Of a stretch of 64,000 nt of DNA, positions 4,494 to 44,426 are shown in pieces. Source of the DNA: Planococcus plakortidis (GTDB lineage Bacteria > Bacillota > Bacilli > Bacillales_A > Planococcaceae); contig NZ_CP016539.2 of assembly GCF_001687605.2 (NCBI RefSeq), positions 2,200,501 to 2,264,500 of the forward strand, read 5' to 3'. The notes under the pieces were generated by a model that had not been told where the DNA came from, made no database searches, and was given only the letters and a program-made list of their open reading frames with translations. The stretch's first letter is position 1. The number at the start of each line of letters is the position of its first letter. The position numbers and the translations under genes are program-made.

Positions 4494-5788
4494 GCTGCAT
4501 CCTCCCCTTCAATGCGGTAATGGCTGATGAGGCTTGCCATTCCTTCAAGTTCTTTCAAGACATCCAAATGCTGCTGGCGGGAAATTTCATGTGTTTTTAA
4601 AATGAGTTCCGCTTTTCCTTCAGTTTCATTTGTTCCTGGATTCTGTACGATCGATTGGATACTTGCACCGTGTTTGCTGTAGATGGCGCTCACTTTGGAT
4701 AATACACCGACGACATCATCCACCAGCAAGCGATGGAAATACTTTGAGCAGCTTTTATCCGCCGGCTTGATGACGCGTTCGTGCTGTGCTGCGTGTTCAC
4801 GTTTTCCGTTCACCCCGAGAAGCAAGTTTCTGCACGCTGCGATGATATCGGATACGACGGATGTCGCTGTCGGCAATGAGCCTGCCCCCGGCCCATAAAG
4901 CATCGTTTCCCCAACTGCATCGCCGTAGATATAAACGGCATTGAATTCGTTATTGACCGAAGCCAAAGGATGGCTGTTCGCCAGGAAAATCGGTTCAACC
5001 GAAACATCGATGCCGTCTTCATCCTTTGTCGAAGAGCCGACCATTTTCATCGTATAGCCCAAGCTTTCGCCCATCTCTACATCGCCATCCTTGATGGTCT
5101 CCATGCCGCGGATATTGACATCATCCAACTTTACTTCTGTTGAGTAAGCGAGCGATGACAAGATGACCATTTTGCGCGCTGCATCAAGGCCGCCGACATC
5201 CGCGGTCGGGTCAGCTTCCGCAAATCCGAGTTCGGTCGCTTCGGCGAGTGCGTCTTCATAGCTTTTCTTTTCCTGCTTCATTTTTGTCAGGATGAAGTTC
5301 GTTGTGCCATTGACGATCCCCATCATGCTTGAGATGCGGTCGGAAGCGAGCCCGTCTTCAAGCGTCCGGATAATCGGGATGCCGCCGGCTACACTCGCTT
5401 CATAGAATAGATCACATTTCTCGTCATCTGCCATTTTCAATAGATCATGGCCGTATTCTGCCATGACGTCTTTATTCGCAGTCACGACTTGTTTGCCTGA
5501 TTTCAACGCCTGTTCCATCGCGGCTCTTGCGCCTTCGATGCCGCCCATCACTTCTACGATTATATCGAGGGAAGAATCATTCAAGATTTCTTCAATATCC
5601 GTCGTGAAGACATTCGGATCGAGGTCCGATATCCGGTCTTTCCCGGCATCACGCACCAATACTTTTTGGATCGTGACTTTGGCGCCGAGTTTATGCTGAA
5701 GATCTTCCTGGTGCTGCTGGATGATCTTTGCCACGCCGCTTCCTACTGTCCCGAAACCTAATAATCCGATTGAAATTTCATTTTTCAT
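4490..5788 (-). CDS. hom: Homoserine dehydrogenase with C-terminal ACT domain
   Basis: Reduces aspartate semialdehyde to homoserine, the branch point to threonine and methionine. The N-terminal dinucleotide site is [11 protein letters not shown], followed by VTANKD and [10 protein letters not shown] of the catalytic domain. The last ~80 residues form a probable ACT domain ([16 protein letters not shown]) that would confer threonine feedback. I chose the ATG at 5788 (MKNEISI), with GGGAGGA seven to eight bases upstream, over the in-frame codon at 5815, whose upstream sequence has no ribosome site. First gene of the thr operon, divergent from the aspartokinase. Confidence 0.95.
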
Positions 5789-5916
5789 TGACGATTCCTC
5801 CCATGGTGTGTACACTGTGAAAAAACAGCTGTTTTTGTCATAGAGACATTATAGTATTATATTTTAGTGAAAACAACCCTTTTCACAGACTATTAAAAAA
5901 GATGGGACTTGATAGG
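5789..5916. promoter_or_regulatory. Divergent control region between hom and the aspartokinase gene
   Basis: The region holds a 16-base palindrome AAAAACAGCTGTTTTT (5820-5835). Around it is a wider inverted pair, TGTGAAAA (5817-5824) and TTTTCACA (5880-5887). A rightward promoter is plausible at TTGTCA (5835-5840) and TATATT (5858-5863) with 17-base spacing, so the palindrome abuts its -35. In B. subtilis the MocR-type repressor ThrR acts on hom and thrD promoters. That the same control acts here is inference. Confidence 0.55.
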
Positions 5917-7284
5917 ATGAAAGTATGCAAATTCGGTGGAACTTCAGTCGCTAGCGCGCAGCAAATCAGAAAAGTCGCAAGCATCATCAAAGCGGACCCG
6001 GCACGCCGGATTGTGGTCGTCTCAGCCCCGGGCAAGCGCTACGGCGGGGATGTCAAAGTGACCGACCTATTGATCCGACTCGCGTCCGCCGCATTAATGG
6101 GCGAAGCAATCCAGCAGCCCTTGCAGGCAGTCATCGACCGTTACACGGAAATCGCGGATGAACTCGGGCTCGACCGGGAGATCATCGACATCATCCGTGC
6201 CGATCTCTCAGACCGCCTGCGTGCAGACAGCGGCCAGCATGATTTGTATATCGACTCGATCAAAGCGGCAGGGGAAGACAATACAGCGAAACTGATCGCT
6301 GCTTACTTCATGTCCATCGGAATGCAGGCGGAATACGTCAATCCGTATAAAGCTGGCTTGTTCGTCAATGATCCCCCGGAACGCGCACAAGCCTTGCCGG
6401 AGTCCTACAGCCAACTTGCCGCTTTAAGCGACAAGCCATCGATTACCGTGTTCCCCGGTTTTTTCGCTTACACAACATCCGGCATGCTCCGGACATTCGA
6501 CCGCGGTGGCTCTGACATCACTGGTTCCATCCTTGCAGCTGCCGTAAAGGCTGAGCTGTATGAGAATTTTACCGATGTTGACTGTGTGTTTGCCGCCAAT
6601 CCCCAAGTCGTCGACAACCCAGTGGAAATCGAGCAGATGACTTACCGTGAAATGCGTGAACTGTCCTACGCAGGATTTGCCGTCCTACACGATGAAGCCT
6701 TGATGCCTGCCTACCGGGCGTCCGTGCCGCTGTGCATCCGCAATACCAATAATCCGTCAGCGCCAGGCACGATGATCGTTGCGGAACGCGCCGATTCCCC
6801 GCGCCCTGTGACCGGGATCTCGGCGGACAGCGGTTTCTCTACTTTATATGTCGGCAAGTACTTGATGAACCGCGAAGTCGGATTCGGCCGTAAATTGCTG
6901 CAAATTTTGGAAGAAGAAGAAATCTCTTACGAGCACATCCCATCAGGTATCGATAATCTCTCCGTCATCCTTAGAAGCCATCAGCTCGATGAGAACAAGG
7001 AACAGCGCATCATCGAACGGGTGAAGAACGAACTCCAGGCGGACGATGTGCATATCCGCAATGATTTCTCGATGATCGTGTTGGTGGGCGAAGGCATGAA
7101 CAATAATAAAGGCCTGACTGCCCGTGCGGCTGCAGCATTTGCACGCACTAACGTCAATATCGAGATGATCAACCAGGGATCTTCCGAAGTCAGTTTGGTG
7201 TTTGGCATCCTGAAAGAAGACGAAGGAAAGATCCTCAATGAACTGTACAAGGAATTTTTCGCACCGGCGCTGGTCGGCCAGTAA
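5917..7284 (+). CDS. thrD: Aspartate kinase (aspartokinase III type, YclM/ThrD family)
   Basis: Phosphorylates aspartate, the first step to lysine, methionine and threonine. KFGGTSVAS at the N-terminus is the kinase signature. FDRGGSDITGSI and ELYENFTDVDC follow in the catalytic domain, and two ACT domains lie at the C-terminus (IEMINQGSSEVS). It matches the B. subtilis YclM layout of about 455 residues. The ATG at 5917 (MKVCKFGG) gives the family-typical N-terminus; an in-frame ATG at 5902 would add five residues. Neither has a strong ribosome site, so the start is not certain. It is transcribed away from hom-thrC-thrB, so the two units together encode most of the aspartate-to-threonine route. 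Confidence 0.92.
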   Translation: MKVCKFGGTSVASAQQIRKVASIIKADPARRIVVVSAPGKRYGGDVKVTDLLIRLASAALMGEAIQQPLQAVIDRYTEIADELGLDREIIDIIRADLSDRLRADSGQHDLYIDSIKAAGEDNTAKLIAAYFMSIGMQAEYVNPYKAGLFVNDPPERAQALPESYSQLAALSDKPSITVFPGFFAYTTSGMLRTFDRGGSDITGSILAAAVKAELYENFTDVDCVFAANPQVVDNPVEIEQMTYREMRELSYAGFAVLHDEALMPAYRASVPLCIRNTNNPSAPGTMIVAERADSPRPVTGISADSGFSTLYVGKYLMNREVGFGRKLLQILEEEEISYEHIPSGIDNLSVILRSHQLDENKEQRIIERVKNELQADDVHIRNDFSMIVLVGEGMNNNKGLTARAAAAFARTNVNIEMINQGSSEVSLVFGILKEDEGKILNELYKEFFAPALVGQ

Positions 7285-37589: not shown

Positions 37590-38009
37590 TTACTCACCAG
37601 TTGCAACGAAATAGCGGATGCGCGCTTCGATATCATCGCGTACCGATTGGAACACTTTCCATTTCTCTTCTTCGGTGCCTTGCGCTTTCGCCGGATCCGT
37701 AAAGCCCCAGTGGTCGCGTTTTACGTGAGGAGGCGTCATCGGGCATTTATCGGCCGCATCGCCGCAAAGCGTCACGACGAAATCGGCATTGTTCAAAATT
37801 TCGGTATCGATGACATCGGATGTTTGTCCTGAAATATCGATATTCACTTCATTCATCGCTTTCACTGCGTTCGGGTTCAAGCCATGCGCTTCGATCCCGG
37901 CACTCAACACTTGCCACTCATCGCCCAAAATTTCCTTCCCCCAGCCTTCTGCCATCTGGCTGCGGCAGGAATTGCCTGTGCATAAAAAGTACAATGTTTT
38001 TTTCGTCAT
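37590..38009 (-). CDS. arsC: Arsenate reductase, thioredoxin-coupled
   Basis: About 139 residues. It reduces arsenate to arsenite with electrons from thioredoxin. The low-molecular-weight phosphatase loop CTGNSCRS has C10 and R16, and the relay cysteines are C82 and C89 (LCGDAADKC), exactly at the positions known for the pI258 enzyme. I chose the ATG at 38009 ([10 protein letters not shown]), with AAGGGAG upstream. It lies 80 bases after arsR on the same strand and is likely co-transcribed. No arsB or acr3 exporter is in the window. Confidence 0.95.
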
Positions 38010-38089
38010 ATTGATTAGCTCCCTTGTTCCATGAATGGTTTTTGTTAGATCAATGTTCATTCAACTTGATGCCTTTTCCGCATTAACAC

Positions 38090-38440
38090 TTATTCACAAC
38101 GAATGCGCAGTCCCTGCTCCACCAACTTCTCGATGCGTTCGTCCTGGCTTGGAATGAACGCCAACACTTGCATGAGCATGTCGTATAATTCACTGTCCTG
38201 GTTCAATGAATAGAAAATCCATTGCCCCTTGCGCTTTTCCTTCACTAAACCGAGATCGCGAAGCTTGCGCAAGTGCTGGCTGATGGCGGACTGGCTGACG
38301 TTAAAGATTTCCACGAATTCGCAGACGCAGCAATCGTTTTTTTCGAGCAATTTGACCATCGACAATCTTGTCTTGTCACCTAATAGCTTCAGCAGCATGC
38401 TCGCTTTGTCAATTTCTATTTCGCGCGCTTTCACTTCCAT
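38090..38440 (-). CDS. arsR: ArsR-family metal(loid)-responsive repressor
   Basis: A 116-residue winged helix-turn-helix protein. The DNA-recognition helix is SQSAISQHLRKLRDLGLV. The sensor site in the alpha-3 helix reads DCCVCEF, close to the ELCVCDL that binds arsenite or antimonite in classic ArsR. GGGGGAA lies upstream of the ATG at 38440. It should repress its own operon with arsC until arsenite binds; that follows from the family. Confidence 0.93.
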   Translation of the reverse strand: MEVKAREIEIDKASMLLKLLGDKTRLSMVKLLEKNDCCVCEFVEIFNVSQSAISQHLRKLRDLGLVKEKRKGQWIFYSLNQDSELYDMLMQVLAFIPSQDERIEKLVEQGLRIRCE

Positions 38441-38500
38441 CGGATGATTCCCCCGCTTCTATACTTAGGTTTGCTTAAATACTTTAATACCAAATACAGC

Positions 38501-38520
38501 ATATCAGCATATGCTTATAT
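38501..38520. promoter_or_regulatory. Palindromic operator upstream of arsR
   Basis: ATATCAGCATATGCTTATAT is a palindrome with one mismatched pair, centred on AGCATATGCT (38506-38515), about 60-80 bases before the arsR start. Its length and AT-rich character match ArsR/SmtB operators. Confidence 0.6.
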
Positions 38521-38570
38521 GTTCAAGCAGTGATCTGAATGATAAAACATGTACAGCGCGTATTTTTCAT

Positions 38571-38601
38571 AGAAAAAAGGAGCGGCATGCTCCCGCTCCT
38601 T
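38571..38601 (-). terminator. Terminator after czcD
   Basis: AAGGAGCGG (38577-38585) pairs with CCGCTCCTT (38593-38601); A tract to the left gives T on the minus strand. Confidence 0.85.
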
Positions 38602-38619
38602 CCTGATTGAATCTTTTCT

Positions 38620-39564
38620 TCAATGATGATGATGCCCAGCCGCTTCAGTCTCTTCTTGCCCTTGGCAGCGGATCGAGTCGTCATGGGGATGATCTTCGGT
38701 TTCCAACTGCACGGTGACATGGCCGATTTTCAGCTCCAACAGCGCATGTTCAATATCCCTAAGCACTTGCTGGCTGTCCTTGAACGAGATATGTTCTTTG
38801 ATGACCACATGTCCCGACATGGCATTCTTCCCGCTCGTGATGCTCCACACGTGAAGGTCGTGGATACTTTTCACGGCAGGCAGCGCTTCGATCGTTTGCG
38901 CTACTTGTTCCAGGTCGACATTTTTCGGCGTGCCTTCCATCAAGACATGCACCGCTTCTTTCGTTACGCGCCAACCGCTGATCAAGACAAGGATGGCGAC
39001 AACTACACTCGCCAGCGGATCTGCCCATGCCCACCCGAAGAAAATGATCAACAGGGCCGCCGTGATCGCGCCGACCGATCCGAGCAAATCACTTAAGACA
39101 TGTAAAAAAGCGGCACGGAGGTTCAAGTTTTCTTTCGTATCGCCTCCGCGCATCAAAATCCACGCAACGAGGATATTGACGAGCAAGCCGATAACCGCAA
39201 TGGCCAGCATGCCCGAAGTCGCAATTTCAGGTGGGTCGGAAAATCGGTGATAGGCTTCATAGAAAATATAAAGTGAAATCAACACTAGTGTTACTCCATT
39301 AAAGACTGCCGCCAGAATTTCAAAGCGTTTATAGCCGTAGGTCTTCATTTGATCGGCCGCTTTTTCGCCGATGGAAAAAGCCAGGTAGCCGACACCGAGC
39401 GAAATGGAATCGCTGAGCATATGGCCGGCATCCGCCAGCAGCGCAAGGCTGTTCGTCAAATATCCGCCGATCGCCTCGACCACCATATAACCGGTGATGA
39501 TCAGAAAGGCGATCAACAATGTTTTTTTATTGCGGCTATGCGCATGGTCATGTGATGATCCCAC
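38620..39564 (-). CDS. czcD: Cation diffusion facilitator metal exporter, CzcD type
   Basis: About 314 residues with six membrane helices (from LLIAFLIITGYMVVEAIGG). The transport-site residues are in LLADAGHMLSDS (helix II, HxxxD) and LHVLSDLLGSV (helix V, HxxxD), as in zinc, cobalt and cadmium exporters. A cytoplasmic C-terminal domain holds IHDLHVWSI. His-rich stretches lie at both ends (HDHAHS and a terminal HHHH run). I chose the GTG at 39564, with GGAGGTG seven to eight bases before it. It has its own terminator and stands between arsR and the sensory operon. Confidence 0.92.
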   Translation of the reverse strand: MGSSHDHAHSRNKKTLLIAFLIITGYMVVEAIGGYLTNSLALLADAGHMLSDSISLGVGYLAFSIGEKAADQMKTYGYKRFEILAAVFNGVTLVLISLYIFYEAYHRFSDPPEIATSGMLAIAVIGLLVNILVAWILMRGGDTKENLNLRAAFLHVLSDLLGSVGAITAALLIIFFGWAWADPLASVVVAILVLISGWRVTKEAVHVLMEGTPKNVDLEQVAQTIEALPAVKSIHDLHVWSITSGKNAMSGHVVIKEHISFKDSQQVLRDIEHALLELKIGHVTVQLETEDHPHDDSIRCQGQEETEAAGHHHH

Positions 39565-39663
39565 CGCCAACACCTCCACTGCAGCTTCTTAATAATCCTC
39601 TTCTATATGTGTATTCCCGAATCATGGATGGATATCCTTTTCGAAAAAATCTTTTCCGCATGG

Positions 39664-39687
39664 AAAAACCGGCTCATAAGGCCGGTT
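39664..39687 (-). terminator. Terminator of the sensory operon
   Basis: AACCGGC (39667-39673) pairs with GCCGGTT (39681-39687); short A tract on the left. Confidence 0.7.
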
Positions 39688-39690
39688 TCA

Positions 39691-40452
39691 TTAGCTTTTT
39701 GCAGCAGCTGTACTCAAAATGGATTCCAGTGAAGCTTCGAAACGCAGGTTCATTTCCCGTTTCAACAAATGCAATTTTTGGGCATGGTCCGGTTTCACGC
39801 CAGTGATGGCCGCGTCGATTCCCATGACGCCCAAAGTCTGCACGAGCGATTCCAGGTAATGGACGCCTTCTTGTGTCACTGTCCCCATCGCCGTCAAATC
39901 GATCACGACCGTGTCCGCTTCATATTCATAGATTCGGGTCACGACGTAAGGGCGGATCGCTTCGACTTTCTTGGCGTCCAAATTGCCGAATAACGGAATC
40001 AGCACATAGCCGCCCCCGACTGAGATGCACGGCGCGGATAGTTCCCGCACTTTTTCCAACAATGCGTCTGCCCGTTCTTTTTCCTTCAGCAATTCATAAT
40101 CCGTTTCCTTCAAGCGGCCGCGAAGGCGGACCATTTGCGCCGTAATCGAATCCAGTTGCCCATCTTTCGGCACAAGCACCAAATTCAACGAGAAGTCGCT
40201 ATCCCAGCGGTAATGGACATCCGCTAAAAACAAGCCGTCGCCCACCATGAAGTTCAGCTCTACGGGCTTCTGCTTCGTGCGTTGTTTCAATAGGCGTTCG
40301 GCTTTCGGGCGGCTGCCTTCATCAAGCAGCTCAAAAAACGTTTCCGGCGCGCCGAAAAGCTGTTCGGCTTCCGAGGATTGGTCGACCACTACAAAGCTAT
40401 TATTCAACCTGAAAGCCGGCAGCGGCCATTCAGCCAGTGGAGAGCGTGTCAT
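39691..40452 (-). CDS. PAS-STAS protein, RsbR-type stressosome paralogue
   Basis: 253 residues. Residues ~10-95 look like a PAS-type fold (FRLNNSFVVVDQSSEAEQLFG ... HYRWDSDFSLNLVLVP). A coiled-coil linker follows (about 100-138, LRGRLKETDYELLKEKERAD). The C-terminal STAS domain (~139-245) has VLIPLFGNLD. Threonines T187 (VVIDLTAMG) and T217 (AAITGVKPDHAQ) sit where RsbR proteins carry T171 and T205, the RsbT kinase targets. I chose the ATG at 40452, with AAAGGGG ahead; it overlaps the B12 gene by 23 bases. It probably joins or imitates the sigma-B stressosome. The last gene of the operon. Confidence 0.82.
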   Translation of the reverse strand: MTRSPLAEWPLPAFRLNNSFVVVDQSSEAEQLFGAPETFFELLDEGSRPKAERLLKQRTKQKPVELNFMVGDGLFLADVHYRWDSDFSLNLVLVPKDGQLDSITAQMVRLRGRLKETDYELLKEKERADALLEKVRELSAPCISVGGGYVLIPLFGNLDAKKVEAIRPYVVTRIYEYEADTVVIDLTAMGTVTQEGVHYLESLVQTLGVMGIDAAITGVKPDHAQKLHLLKREMNLRFEASLESILSTAAAKS

Positions 40453-41080
40453 CGTTCGGCCCCTTTCCAGTGCGGATCCATTCCCTGAGCGCACCCAGTT
40501 CCCGGACAACTACCGCGCCTTTCACATGCAAATCCGCAAAACTCGACAAGGTGACAGCCCGGCCGCCGATCAGCACGGCGGGGTTGGAACCGGTGTGCGC
40601 AAAAGCTTCCGCATAGGTTTTCAAAGCCGGCAGCCGATGCGCGAGCGCGCCGGATAATGCCACGACGTCCGGCTGCCATTCCCCGGCCAGTTCAAGCGCT
40701 GAATCAAGCGGCAGATTCGGCCCCATGTAGCGGACTTCATACCCTTCTTCGCGGAACAATGCGGCGACCATCTTGAGCCCGATATAATGCTCTTCGCCTT
40801 CCGGCCCGAAAACCATCGCCTTTTTTGGCCCGTTGCCTGCCTTGTTCCGCAGTTCCGTAGCGGACAGCACAAAATCACAGACGGCAGTGGCCAAATGCTC
40901 TTCCGCTACCGATATCTCATTTTGTTCCCATAGTTCACCGATACGATACATCGCCGGTGTCAATAATTCGCTGTAGAGCTGTTCGTATGAATGGCTTTCC
41001 AGGAAATCCTGGACATATTTCAAAGCTTCCTCTTCCTGTCCCTGCAGGAAAAGATCCGAAAGCTGTGTTGATTCGTGCAT
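40430..41080 (-). CDS. Cobalamin-binding protein with CarH-type light-sensor signature
   Basis: 216 residues. An N-terminal four-helix cap carries W51-x9-E61-H62 (LWEQNEISVAEEH), the W-x9-EH motif of adenosylcobalamin photoreceptors of the CarH/LitR group. The Rossmann-type B12 domain follows: E96-x-H98-x2-G101 supplies the lower axial histidine, then SGALAH and IGGRAV contact the nucleotide tail. The MerR DNA-binding domain of CarH is absent. I chose the ATG at 41080 (MHESTQLSD), with AAAAGGGG upstream. It overlaps the STAS gene, so it is likely its sensory partner. Light, oxygen or B12 level could be the signal. Confidence 0.85.
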   Translation of the reverse strand: MHESTQLSDLFLQGQEEEALKYVQDFLESHSYEQLYSELLTPAMYRIGELWEQNEISVAEEHLATAVCDFVLSATELRNKAGNGPKKAMVFGPEGEEHYIGLKMVAALFREEGYEVRYMGPNLPLDSALELAGEWQPDVVALSGALAHRLPALKTYAEAFAHTGSNPAVLIGGRAVTLSSFADLHVKGAVVVRELGALREWIRTGKGPNDDTLSTG

Positions 41081-41084
41081 TTGA

Positions 41085-41453
41085 TCAGCCCCTTTTATGT
41101 TGAGGGAGCTCCAATAACCGGACTGCGCGATCGAGGCAGCCCAGCATGAAATCTCCTTGCGTTGTTTCGGTGTAGCGCGGCACAATATCCATAAGCCGCC
41201 TGAAATTATCGATGATGAGGGCGGTTTCGACATTGCGGCTCACAAGCACCGTCTCGAGCCAGATGGCGTAGTCGACAAAGGATTGCTCGCTTTGCAGCTC
41301 CCACGCGGTTTCGAGATAATCCAAGTGGTGATGATTGTCTTTGACGGTATGTTCATATCCCTTATCGCCGAAACGTTCCCATAAATTCGGATACGCTTCG
41401 TATATACCGTCTGCCGTGTCGGTCGCGATTTGCTGTTTTTGTTCCTGGTTCAT
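41085..41453 (-). CDS. Small helical protein of the B12-sensor operon
   Basis: 122 residues, mostly helical and acidic. It has YEAYPNLWERFGDKGYE, HHHLDYLETAWEL, FVDYAIWLETVLVSRNVE and a C-terminal LDRAVRLLELP. I recall this pattern (YPxLxxRYG...HLxYL...FxxYxxWLxxVLxSR) as an N-terminal extension of some cobalamin-binding proteins; here it would be a separate subunit. That comparison is from memory. Its start overlaps the monooxygenase stop (ATGA) and its stop is four bases before the B12 gene. Confidence 0.75.
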   Translation of the reverse strand: MNQEQKQQIATDTADGIYEAYPNLWERFGDKGYEHTVKDNHHHLDYLETAWELQSEQSFVDYAIWLETVLVSRNVETALIIDNFRRLMDIVPRYTETTQGDFMLGCLDRAVRLLELPQHKRG

Positions 41454-41755
41454 TCGGCCACCACTTCGTACTGATGGACTTTCGGCACGATGCCCGCGAG
41501 TTCCTGGTCAGGATAGTTCTTTTCCAAATCATGGATTTCCTTGAACTCCTGGCTCTTGACCCAGTTCATATACGACTGTTTGGACTGCCATTCCAGATGA
41601 ACAGTCAATTCATGTCGCTTTTTCGTGTTTTGGATCAACCGGAATGAAGTAAAGCCTTCCGCCTGGTCCACACGGCGCGAGCGTTTCTGGTAAATTTCGA
41701 TGACGTCTTGTACCTTGTCTTCAGGCACAATGACGGTGGATGTGACGATGTACAT
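41450..41755 (-). CDS. ABM-fold monooxygenase (antibiotic biosynthesis monooxygenase / HmoA-like)
   Basis: 101 residues of the dimeric alpha+beta barrel type. N-terminal MYIVTSTVIVPEDKVQDVIEIY and central GFTSFRLIQNTKKRHELTVHLEWQSKQSYMNWV follow the pattern of heme-degrading or quinone-forming ABM proteins. A single histidine in the usual heme position is not assured, so the reaction is open. First gene of the four-gene operon. A TATAAT -10 box lies upstream on the minus strand (41862-41867). Confidence 0.8.
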   Translation of the reverse strand: MYIVTSTVIVPEDKVQDVIEIYQKRSRRVDQAEGFTSFRLIQNTKKRHELTVHLEWQSKQSYMNWVKSQEFKEIHDLEKNYPDQELAGIVPKVHQYEVVAE

Positions 41756-41917: not shown

Positions 41918-41960
41918 GGAAAACATCAACCAACAGCAAACGACAACTTTATAAAATGAT

Positions 41961-42116
41961 TCTTATCGAGAGAGATGGAGGGATTTGGCCCTTTGAAGTC
42001 TCAGCAACCGGACAATGTCACGGTGCTAATTCCAATAGGTACAGCCTAGTAGATGAGAAGATGGCATATACGGCAGGGGCTTTCTTCTAATCAATAGAAG
42101 AAAGCCCCTGCTTTTT
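41961..42116 (+). ncRNA. SAM-I (S-box) riboswitch with terminator, upstream of metI
   Basis: The aptamer reads TCTTATCGAGAGAGATGGAG, GGATTTGGCCC, TGAAGTCTCAGCAACCGG, CGGTGCTAATTCC and AGATGAGA (41961-42060), all S-box landmarks. It is followed by a strong terminator whose stem (42073-42111, arms GCAGGGGCTTTCTTCT and complement) ends in TTTTT. High SAM should stop transcription before metI; low SAM permits the antiterminator. Confidence 0.96.
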
Positions 42117-42136
42117 GATTTGAAAGGATGAGGACC

Positions 42137-43261
42137 ATGACACAGCATAGTTTAGAAACTCGACTGGTACAGCTCGGCAACCGCAGCGACCAACGCACAG
42201 GAGCGGTCAATCCCCCGATTTACCTTTCCACCGCTTATGAACACGAAGGCCTTGGCAAATCCACAGGCTATGATTATACGCGGACAAAAAACCCGACACG
42301 GCAGCTTCTTGAAGAAGGGATCGCGAATCTGGAAGGCGGCGACGCAGGCTTTGCATGCAGCTCCGGAATGGCCGCGATCCAACTGGTCCTCTCCTTGTTC
42401 CGTCCGAACGATGAAATTTTGCTTCCTGAAGATATTTATGGCGGCACCTACCGCCTGCTGGAACAATATGAAGAGAAATACCATATCCGCCCCATTTACG
42501 ATTCCTTCATCGATCCGAAAACAGCTGAAGCGAAAATCACTGACAATACAAAAGCGATTTTTATTGAAACCCCAACCAACCCATTGATGCAGGAGATCGA
42601 TTTGGAATTGTATGCACAATTGGCGAAACGCCACAAGCTTTTGCTGATTGTCGACAATACCTTTTTGACGCCTTTCCTGCAGCAGCCGCTCGCAATCGGT
42701 GCGGATATCGTACTCCATAGCGCCACCAAGTATATCGGCGGCCATAACGATGTGCTCGCTGGGCTAGTCGCCGCAAAAGGCGTCACTTTATGCGAAGAAC
42801 TGTTCACTGCCCACAATTCGGCTGGTGCCGTGCTATCTCCGCTCGATTCCTGGCTGTTGATCCGCGGCTTGAAAACCTTGCCGCTGCGCATGCGCCAGCA
42901 CGAAGCCAATGCCAAGGAAATCTCCCGTTTCCTGGAGACACATGATGCCGTGACAGATGTACTGTATCCAGGAAAAGGCGGCATGTTGTCGTTCCGCCTG
43001 CGCGAAGAGCGATGGATTGGGGAATTCCTCGAGAGCCTATCGCTCATCACATTTGCCGAGAGCCTCGGCGGCGTAGAAAGTTTCATCACATATCCTGCGA
43101 CCCAGACCCATGCCGATATGCCGGTCGCAGAACGCACGGCACGCGGCGTCTGTAACCGCCTGCTCCGCTTCTCTGTTGGCGTCGAGCAGGCAGAAGATTT
43201 AATTGCTGATTTGTCCCAGGCCTTGGCTAAACTAAAAAAGGAGGTCGTTTCCCATGAGTGA
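42137..43261 (+). CDS. metI: Cystathionine gamma-synthase / O-acetylhomoserine thiolyase (MetI)
   Basis: About 374 residues of the Cys/Met PLP family. It joins activated homoserine with cysteine (or sulfide) in methionine synthesis. Signature segments are YDYTRTKNPTRQLLEEG, CSSGMAAIQL, the PLP lysine in LHSATKYIGGHNDV, and ETPTNPLMQEIDL. I chose the ATG at 42137 (MTQHSLE), with AAGGATGAGG upstream; an in-frame ATG nine bases earlier lies in that site. It follows the SAM riboswitch and overlaps metC by eight bases. Confidence 0.94.
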   Translation: MTQHSLETRLVQLGNRSDQRTGAVNPPIYLSTAYEHEGLGKSTGYDYTRTKNPTRQLLEEGIANLEGGDAGFACSSGMAAIQLVLSLFRPNDEILLPEDIYGGTYRLLEQYEEKYHIRPIYDSFIDPKTAEAKITDNTKAIFIETPTNPLMQEIDLELYAQLAKRHKLLLIVDNTFLTPFLQQPLAIGADIVLHSATKYIGGHNDVLAGLVAAKGVTLCEELFTAHNSAGAVLSPLDSWLLIRGLKTLPLRMRQHEANAKEISRFLETHDAVTDVLYPGKGGMLSFRLREERWIGEFLESLSLITFAESLGGVESFITYPATQTHADMPVAERTARGVCNRLLRFSVGVEQAEDLIADLSQALAKLKKEVVSHE

Positions 43262-44426
43262 ACGACGCGAGACGAAATTGATCCATTCCGCAGGCATCGA
43301 TCCATTAACAGGCGCAGTCAATGTTCCGATCTATCTGTCTTCCACTTTTCATCAGGAGAGTATCGATTCGTTCGGGCCTTTCGATTACAGCCGTTCCGGC
43401 AACCCAACGCGCAAATCACTTGAGGAAACGATCGCCAAACTTGAAGGCGGCGCACGGGGCTTGGCCTTTTCTTCCGGCATGGCGGCTATTTCATCAGCCT
43501 TCATGCTGTTGAAAGCCGGCGACCATGTGCTCGTTTCGGAAGACGTGTACGGCGGCACGTACCGCTTCATCACGGAAGTGCTCGAAAAATTCAAAGTCGA
43601 TTACACCTTCGTCGATATGACCGACCTTGGCGAAGTGGCCGCCGCTTTCCAGCCGAATACGCGAGTCGTCTACATTGAAACGCCTTCCAATCCGGTCATG
43701 AAAATCACCGATATCGAAATGGCCGCTAAACTGGCGAAAGCGAACGATGCCATGACCTTTGTCGACAATACTTTCATGACACCGCTTTACCAGAACCCGC
43801 TTGAACTCGGCGCGGATATCGTACTTCACAGCGCGACGAAGTTCCTGTCGGGCCATAGCGATATCACGGCTGGGCTTGCGGTGACCAAAGATGCCGGGCT
43901 TGGGGAACAATTGGCATTCATCCAAAATACATTCGGCTCTGTACTCGGTGCCCAGGATTCCCATACCTTGATCCAAGGCATCAAGACACTTGGCGCCAGA
44001 ACGAAACAATCCGGTGAAACGACTGCGCGCATTGCGGAGTATTTGCATAAGCATCCGCTTGTCGAGGAAGTCTATTATCCCGGCTTCTCGTTCCATCCCG
44101 GAAACCCGATCCATAGCCGCCAAGCAAGCCACGCCGGTTGTGTGCTGTCATTCCGCCTGGCAGATAAAGACGCAGCCCGCATTCTCGTCGATGCTTTGGA
44201 GATCCCGGTGTTCGCGGTCAGTCTCGGTGCCGTCGAATCGATCCTATCCTATCCCGCTACGATGTCCCATGCCGCCATGCCGCCGGCTGAACGGGAAAAA
44301 CGCGGCATTACCGACGGGCTTCTGCGCTTCTCTGCAGGACTCGAGCATCCCGATGATTTGATCAATGACTTCAGCCAGGCACTCGAAAAAATTGCGATCG
44401 CCAAAGGGCTCAGCATCGCTGATTGA
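43254..44426 (+). CDS. metC: Cystathionine beta-lyase (MetC)
   Basis: 390 residues, a paralogue of the preceding gene. It cleaves cystathionine to homocysteine, pyruvate and ammonia. YSRSGNPTRKSLEE, FSSGMAAIS, ETPSNPVMKI and the PLP lysine in LHSATKFLSGHSDI are clear. AGGAGG precedes the ATG inside metI. With metI it makes homocysteine from homoserine made by the hom gene of this window; both are under SAM control. Confidence 0.94.
   Translation: MSERRETKLIHSAGIDPLTGAVNVPIYLSSTFHQESIDSFGPFDYSRSGNPTRKSLEETIAKLEGGARGLAFSSGMAAISSAFMLLKAGDHVLVSEDVYGGTYRFITEVLEKFKVDYTFVDMTDLGEVAAAFQPNTRVVYIETPSNPVMKITDIEMAAKLAKANDAMTFVDNTFMTPLYQNPLELGADIVLHSATKFLSGHSDITAGLAVTKDAGLGEQLAFIQNTFGSVLGAQDSHTLIQGIKTLGARTKQSGETTARIAEYLHKHPLVEEVYYPGFSFHPGNPIHSRQASHAGCVLSFRLADKDAARILVDALEIPVFAVSLGAVESILSYPATMSHAAMPPAEREKRGITDGLLRFSAGLEHPDDLINDFSQALEKIAIAKGLSIAD

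Follow-up and report, generated by a model that had tools for sequence, protein, structure and literature searches.

The analysed window is a 64-kb stretch of the Planococcus plakortidis genome (64,000 nucleotides), in which four co-directional and nearly contiguous genes occupy the minus strand (41755→39691) in an operon-like layout. In the order of transcription, the locus contains the following features:

41450..41755, minus strand: ABM-fold protein, IsdG/HmuQ-like, 101 aa (Pfam ABM, NCBIfam HmuQ and PDB matches, and a check of the catalytic triad)
41085..41453, minus strand: helical protein, predicted to be a photoglobin-type bilin-pocket globin, 122 aa, five helices (profile search against the PDB, AlphaFold2 model, conservation, fusions)
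40430..41080, minus strand: cobalamin-binding domain protein of the CarH/photocobilin class, 216 aa (Pfam, NCBIfam and PDB matches, conservation)
39691..40452, minus strand: PAS-STAS output protein, YtvA/RsbR-like, 253 aa (STAS match, fold matches, phosphosite alignment)
39661..39688, minus strand: likely intrinsic terminator of the operon, AAACCGGCCTTATGAGCCGGTTTTT (minus-strand reading), a palindrome right behind the STAS stop codon

The palindrome is accompanied by a T-run and lies directly 3' of the stop of the STAS gene. A first-pass annotation had described four overlapping genes, and the four genes are indeed present, with the stop of the ABM gene overlapping the start of the helical protein gene and a 23-nt overlap between the B12 and STAS genes, but the helical protein and B12 genes are spaced by 4 nt. 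A promoter scan at the operon start gave no signal above chance. Since no match to the sigma-B consensus promoter was found anywhere in the 64-kb window, autoregulation of the operon by sigma-B was rejected. The sole match of the Rfam scan was a SAM riboswitch (RF00162, 83 bits) at 41960-42059 on the plus strand, opposite to the operon and divergent from it, which precedes two genes for cystathionine-type PLP enzymes (42128-44426). Just downstream of the operon (37590-39579, minus strand) are genes that appear to encode an ArsR-type regulator, an arsenate-reductase-like phosphatase and a cation-diffusion transporter.

The product of the third gene contains the B12-binding_2 and B12-binding Pfam domains (E about 1e-16 each), matches the NCBIfam CarH family at E 9e-24 (under the cut-off), and has PDB matches to CtMerR, SasPcob and CarH. 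It carries the complete GxxW, EH, GxxH and GxxxP light signature (PMC11796333), and the motifs W51-x9-E61-H62 and E96-x-H98-x2-G101 are present as the first-pass annotation had claimed. Glu61, His62, Glu96, His98, Gly101 and Ser143 are identical in all 90 homologues, and Trp51 is kept in 88 of them, the remaining two being alignment gaps; Gly120 is also kept, as is Pro124 in 80 of the 90. The photocobilin motifs W-x9/10-EH and E/DxH are likewise found in 88 to 90 of the 90 sequences. The protein shares with CarH and LitR a B12 domain with Wx9EH and a lower-ligand His, but it has no MerR domain, as had been proposed, and only B12 domains were found by Pfam and NCBIfam searches. It also differs from CarH at the position of His132, which serves the bis-His light state and is occupied here by Glu52 (Glu in 74 and Gln in 14 of the 90 homologues); this position is variable among other light-sensing cobalamin-binding domains (PMC11796333). 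In a tree of B12 domains the CarH sequences form a separate clade, and long branches and a misplaced MetH in this tree mean that it does not separate a split-first from a fused-first order of events. These sequence features support a CarH-class adenosylcobalamin (AdoCbl) photoreceptor domain without a DNA-binding domain, genetically tied to a PAS-STAS protein. Three matches to cobalamin adenosyltransferase were found in the genome, which also encodes a second CarH/LitR-like MerR-B12 regulator of 310 aa (G000:C1, about 2864967-2865899; L131:2968-3900) with a W-x9-EH motif of its own.

The B12 protein also shows weaker similarity to the corrinoid proteins of methyltransferases (E 1e-10 to 1e-8), as would be expected if it were an MtgC/MtbC-like methyl carrier in a corrinoid methyltransferase cassette. 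We consider such a cassette extremely improbable, because the cluster contains neither a methyltransferase nor an activase gene, the similarity to CarH and photocobilins is much stronger, and the adenosyl-capping Trp and Glu-His residues are invariant.

The 122-aa helical protein encoded by the second gene has no family in Pfam or NCBIfam. When a profile built from 25 homologues was compared with all PDB sequences, four matches were obtained up to E 10, namely the photocobilins 8j2x, 8j2w and 8j2y, in their globin part, and one phycocyanin chain; these matches are individually weak, the best (E 0.014) being to a photocobilin. Photocobilins combine a B12 domain with a biliverdin-binding globin (PMC10979010). 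The AlphaFold2 model of the helical protein (pLDDT 95.7) has five helices and aligns with SasPcob residues 233-345 (8j2w) with Z 14.8 and 2.2 Å over 113 residues and with allophycocyanin B with Z 14.8, and bilin proteins make up nearly all of its top structural matches, although a helical fold alone may give a Z near 14 by chance. In SasPcob, Asp270 and Trp296 are the named biliverdin contacts (PMC10979010), and they align with Asp39 and Trp65 of the helical protein, both of which occur in every one of the 88 homologues (the offset of 6 between sequence and author numbering of SasPcob was checked on Trp61, Glu71 and His72). AbPcob, which is a poor biliverdin binder, lacks the Asp equivalent to SasPcob Asp270 (PMC10979010). 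From its modelled fold and pocket residues, we therefore predict that the helical protein is a globin with a bilin pocket, of the photoglobin/phycobiliprotein type.

The globin of the split family has two further nearly invariant residues, His42 (81/88) and His43 (83/88), which could ligate heme. Together with the action of IsdG-group ABM proteins on heme, they would suit a metabolic, heme or redox sensor, in which the globin would bind heme, a gas or a heme breakdown product, the B12 protein would report cobalamin or redox state to the STAS protein, and light would be incidental. This explanation appears unlikely to us: the full light signature of the cobalamin-binding domain is kept, including Trp51, Glu61, His62, Gly120 and Pro124 (the last in 80/90), in fold and pocket the globin resembles bilin proteins and not heme proteins, and His42 and His43 are missing from most fused relatives, in which Asp39 and Trp65 nevertheless remain.

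A search of genomes for the same gene order, suggested by the first-pass annotation, showed that the order recurs widely. When named genomes were scanned with the helical protein as query, 80 Bacillales loci were found in Planococcus, Sporosarcina, Halobacillus, Pontibacillus, Thalassobacillus, Marinococcus, Metabacillus, Cytobacillus, Evansella and other genera, and 74 of them have the ABM, globin, B12 and STAS genes in this order on one strand; thus, the four-gene group is not a chance grouping. Within the family, 29 loci carry a gene closely related to that for the B12 protein, and 27 of them have all four genes in the same order; the globin and B12 genes are side by side at 78 of the 80 loci. 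The helical protein is present in 59 of the 261 genomes of the order sample, with a genus share of 36 out of 46.

In distant Firmicutes, the two domains occur in a single polypeptide. Six full-length open reading frames of about 360 aa (L156-L161) have this globin in the N-terminal half (E 1e-22 to 1e-11) and a B12 domain in the C-terminal half, so that these fusions are, as judged from their sequences, photocobilins that keep the gene order of the operon, with the globin first. In one of these cases (L158/L166), an ABM gene whose product is 52% identical to that of the window lies directly upstream of the fusion. An in-frame globin-B12 fusion is also found within the genus (L163:779-2857), but the neighbouring STAS gene carries an in-frame stop and this locus may be decaying; for this reason the fusion argument rests on the more distant cases. 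At L169:4595-7543, a fused globin-B12 gene is apparently split by an inserted open reading frame at 5522-6949, which at its start looks, from the sequence, like a reverse transcriptase of a group II intron.

The fold, the pocket residues, the fusions and the gene order all point to a split photocobilin as much the best explanation of the second and third genes, and we hold it with high confidence. It is not a photocobilin in the strict sense but a split relative, because the globin and B12 domains are two separate proteins. The B12 protein could instead sense light alone and act directly on the STAS protein, with the globin and the ABM protein as accessories for chromophore protection or heme housekeeping. 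Such an arrangement would account for G001 and G054, a pair of genomes from a sister genus that retain the B12 and STAS genes and have lost both the ABM and globin genes, and it is compatible with the conserved B12 signature and with the green-light photochemistry that AdoCbl by itself gives in photocobilins (PMC10979010). We nevertheless find it rather unlikely, given the adjacency of the globin and B12 genes at 78 of the 80 loci, their fusion in other Firmicutes, and the invariant bilin contacts of the globin, which would be unexpected in a dispensable accessory. More probably, the sensor is a split photocobilin with two chromophores and not a B12 protein alone.

The output side of the system is modular. 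At L102:3535-4647 and L109:3530-4633, the last gene encodes the same N-terminal PAS-like part joined to a histidine kinase instead of STAS, and the gene order is B12, kinase, ABM, globin. In other lineages, the gene next to a fused photocobilin on its downstream side encodes a hybrid kinase or a GGDEF protein, and three loci lack an adjacent output gene. The joint loss of the ABM and globin genes, the kinase and GGDEF swaps and the loci without an output gene say that the effectors fed by the sensor block are exchangeable, and that a PAS-like domain common to them makes the connection in the split form. Two loci have a full RsbR-like STAS gene (L104:3562-4371 and L108:3617-4453) directly upstream of the ABM, globin and B12 genes.

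The first gene of the operon encodes an ABM protein (PF03992, E 2e-14), whose best NCBIfam match is to the HmuQ heme-degrading family (8e-13, under the cut-off) and whose PDB matches are heme-degrading monooxygenases. It shares with IsdG and HmuQ the ABM fold, Trp65 and His75, but has Ser6 at the position of the catalytic Asn. Characterised heme oxygenases of the IsdG family need an Asn-Trp-His triad (PMC5557675), and the protein was rejected as an ordinary IsdG enzyme, the catalytic Asn being missing. Because Ser occupies this position in 79 of 81 homologues, the sequence makes some other reaction or role likely, and the protein may not make a bilin. We describe it as a putative enzyme making or handling a heme-derived pigment, with uncertain chemistry. 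No canonical heme oxygenase was found in the genome, and such an enzyme was therefore rejected as the pigment source; another ABM protein of the genome retains the Asn, Trp and His residues.

The last gene encodes a 253-aa protein with a C-terminal STAS domain of the stressosome type (Pfam, E 1e-8). The PAS-STAS architecture that had been proposed for it was borne out, with residues 1-96 matching a PAS structure and the STAS domain confirmed. The top fold match of its model is full-length YtvA, followed by the Listeria stressosome proteins RsbR and RsbS. The first-pass annotation had also assigned to this protein both threonines phosphorylated in RsbR (T187 and T217), and this assignment fails. 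The alignment was referenced to RsbR of the same genome, in which T187 and T221 are 34 residues apart, the same distance as between Thr171 and Thr205, the phosphorylated sites of RsbRA (PMC3944199), to which they are equivalent. The corresponding positions of the window protein are Ala160 and Gln194, and no consistent Thr or Ser occurs at them across its homologues; its own T187 belongs to a D-L-T motif in a structural strand, and T217 is located beyond it. Since the phospho-acceptor threonines are not kept, this protein resembles YtvA rather than RsbRA. There is no Cys in the PAS part (residues 1-140), and direct flavin photosensing of the LOV type by this domain was rejected on that ground.

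The genome contains a complete rsbRSTUVW-sigB-rsbX cascade in one cluster, including both rsbS and rsbT, as well as about ten more RsbR-like STAS proteins. Of the Bacillales genomes tested, each of the 33 that carry the B12 gene of the operon has an RsbS orthologue, against none of the seven genomes with the distant fused form; this association fits a stressosome output, but it follows taxonomy and ancestry and does not constitute independent proof. By analogy with YtvA, a stressosome input through the PAS-STAS protein is plausible. The earlier idea of a B12 photosensor wired to a stressosome STAS protein is thus retained in part: the CarH-class domain tied to a PAS-STAS protein and the complete rsb cluster speak for it, but the threonines did not hold up and the globin had been missed.

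Combining these results, we favour, somewhat above even chances, the full proposal, in which the operon encodes a split photocobilin together with a dedicated output protein that acts through STAS on sigma-B. The B12 protein would bind AdoCbl, with His98 as the lower ligand and Trp51, Glu61 and His62 capping the adenosyl group. The globin, to judge from its fold and invariant contacts, would hold a heme-derived linear tetrapyrrole through Asp39 and Trp65, supplied or processed by the ABM protein, and would dock on the B12 protein like the fused domains of photocobilins. As in photocobilins, green light absorbed by B12 or red light absorbed by the bilin would break the Co-C bond, and the globin-B12 complex would then change its shape or its oligomeric state. 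Gene order and effector swapping suggest that the altered complex would bind or release the PAS domain of the last gene product. The STAS protein, as a non-phosphorylatable relative of RsbR within the stressosome, would then alter the release of RsbT and hence sigma-B activity, as suggested by its homology to YtvA and RsbR and by the rsb cluster. Light sensing by the system is inferred here from homology, and an effect on sigma-B by way of the STAS protein is one step further along the same path. A more ambitious version, in which a modular split photoreceptor with AdoCbl and a heme-derived bilin, distributed across Bacillales, passes green and red light to the sigma-B stressosome via a non-phosphorylatable PAS-STAS adaptor, with a histidine kinase as the swapped effector in some species, and the non-canonical Ser-type ABM protein makes a new chromophore, is put forward only tentatively.

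The closest described systems are the photocobilins SasPcob and AbDPcob (PMC10979010), which share with the operon the CarH-type B12 domain (W-x9/10-EH, ExH) and a bilin-pocket globin with the Asp and Trp contacts, and which resemble it in having effectors in cis or in trans. SasPcob is a single polypeptide with the globin last, whereas the operon has a separate globin gene in first position relative to the B12 gene, as in the Firmicutes fusions, and also includes genes for the ABM protein and for a PAS-STAS output protein. Photocobilins acting in trans by protein contact have been published, with STAS and SpoIIE partners suggested for SasPcob (PMC10979010), so that the earlier statement that no such system had been described was too strong. 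In the BBAG-2 clusters of Myxococcales, a separate globin, a B12 protein, a bilin reductase and a heme oxygenase are encoded together, and the BBAG-2 protein tested binds biliverdin (PMC10151467). These clusters, like the operon, place an unfused bilin globin beside a B12-binding protein and a bilin-making enzyme, a role that is putative for the ABM protein; they differ in having a canonical heme oxygenase/FDBR and an RGMC motif, in contrast to the ABM protein and a globin without the RGMC Cys, and the output here is PAS-STAS or a PAS-kinase. YtvA (LOV-STAS) shares the arrangement of PAS fold, helix and STAS, a non-canonical Thr205 position and a likely role as stressosome input, but in the window protein the PAS domain lacks the Cys for a flavin adduct, and light input would come from the partner proteins. 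The RsbR co-antagonists share the fold and similarity of the C-terminal STAS domain; their N-terminal domain is a globin, whereas that of the window protein is PAS, and both RsbT acceptor sites are lost here. Literature on the stressosome with cobalamin, or on B12 binding with STAS, contained nothing on this operon, and the split four-gene form of Bacillales appears undescribed in the literature surveyed, the original photoglobin paper (Schneider et al. 2022) lying outside this comparison.

If the proposal is true, many Bacillales, including Planococcus, Sporosarcina, Halobacillus, Metabacillus, Cytobacillus and others, would own a green- and red-light sensor besides the flavin-based YtvA, with vitamin B12 and a heme-derived pigment as its chromophores, and their stress defences may be switched on by green or red light. 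The stressosome would acquire a photoreceptor working through protein contact, an unnamed family of helical proteins would get a defined role, and a source of the pigment would be suggested. The operon would represent a naturally split and swappable photoreceptor, the parts of which could be expressed in the laboratory, and the model of trans-acting photocobilins would become testable in organisms with good sigma-B assays.
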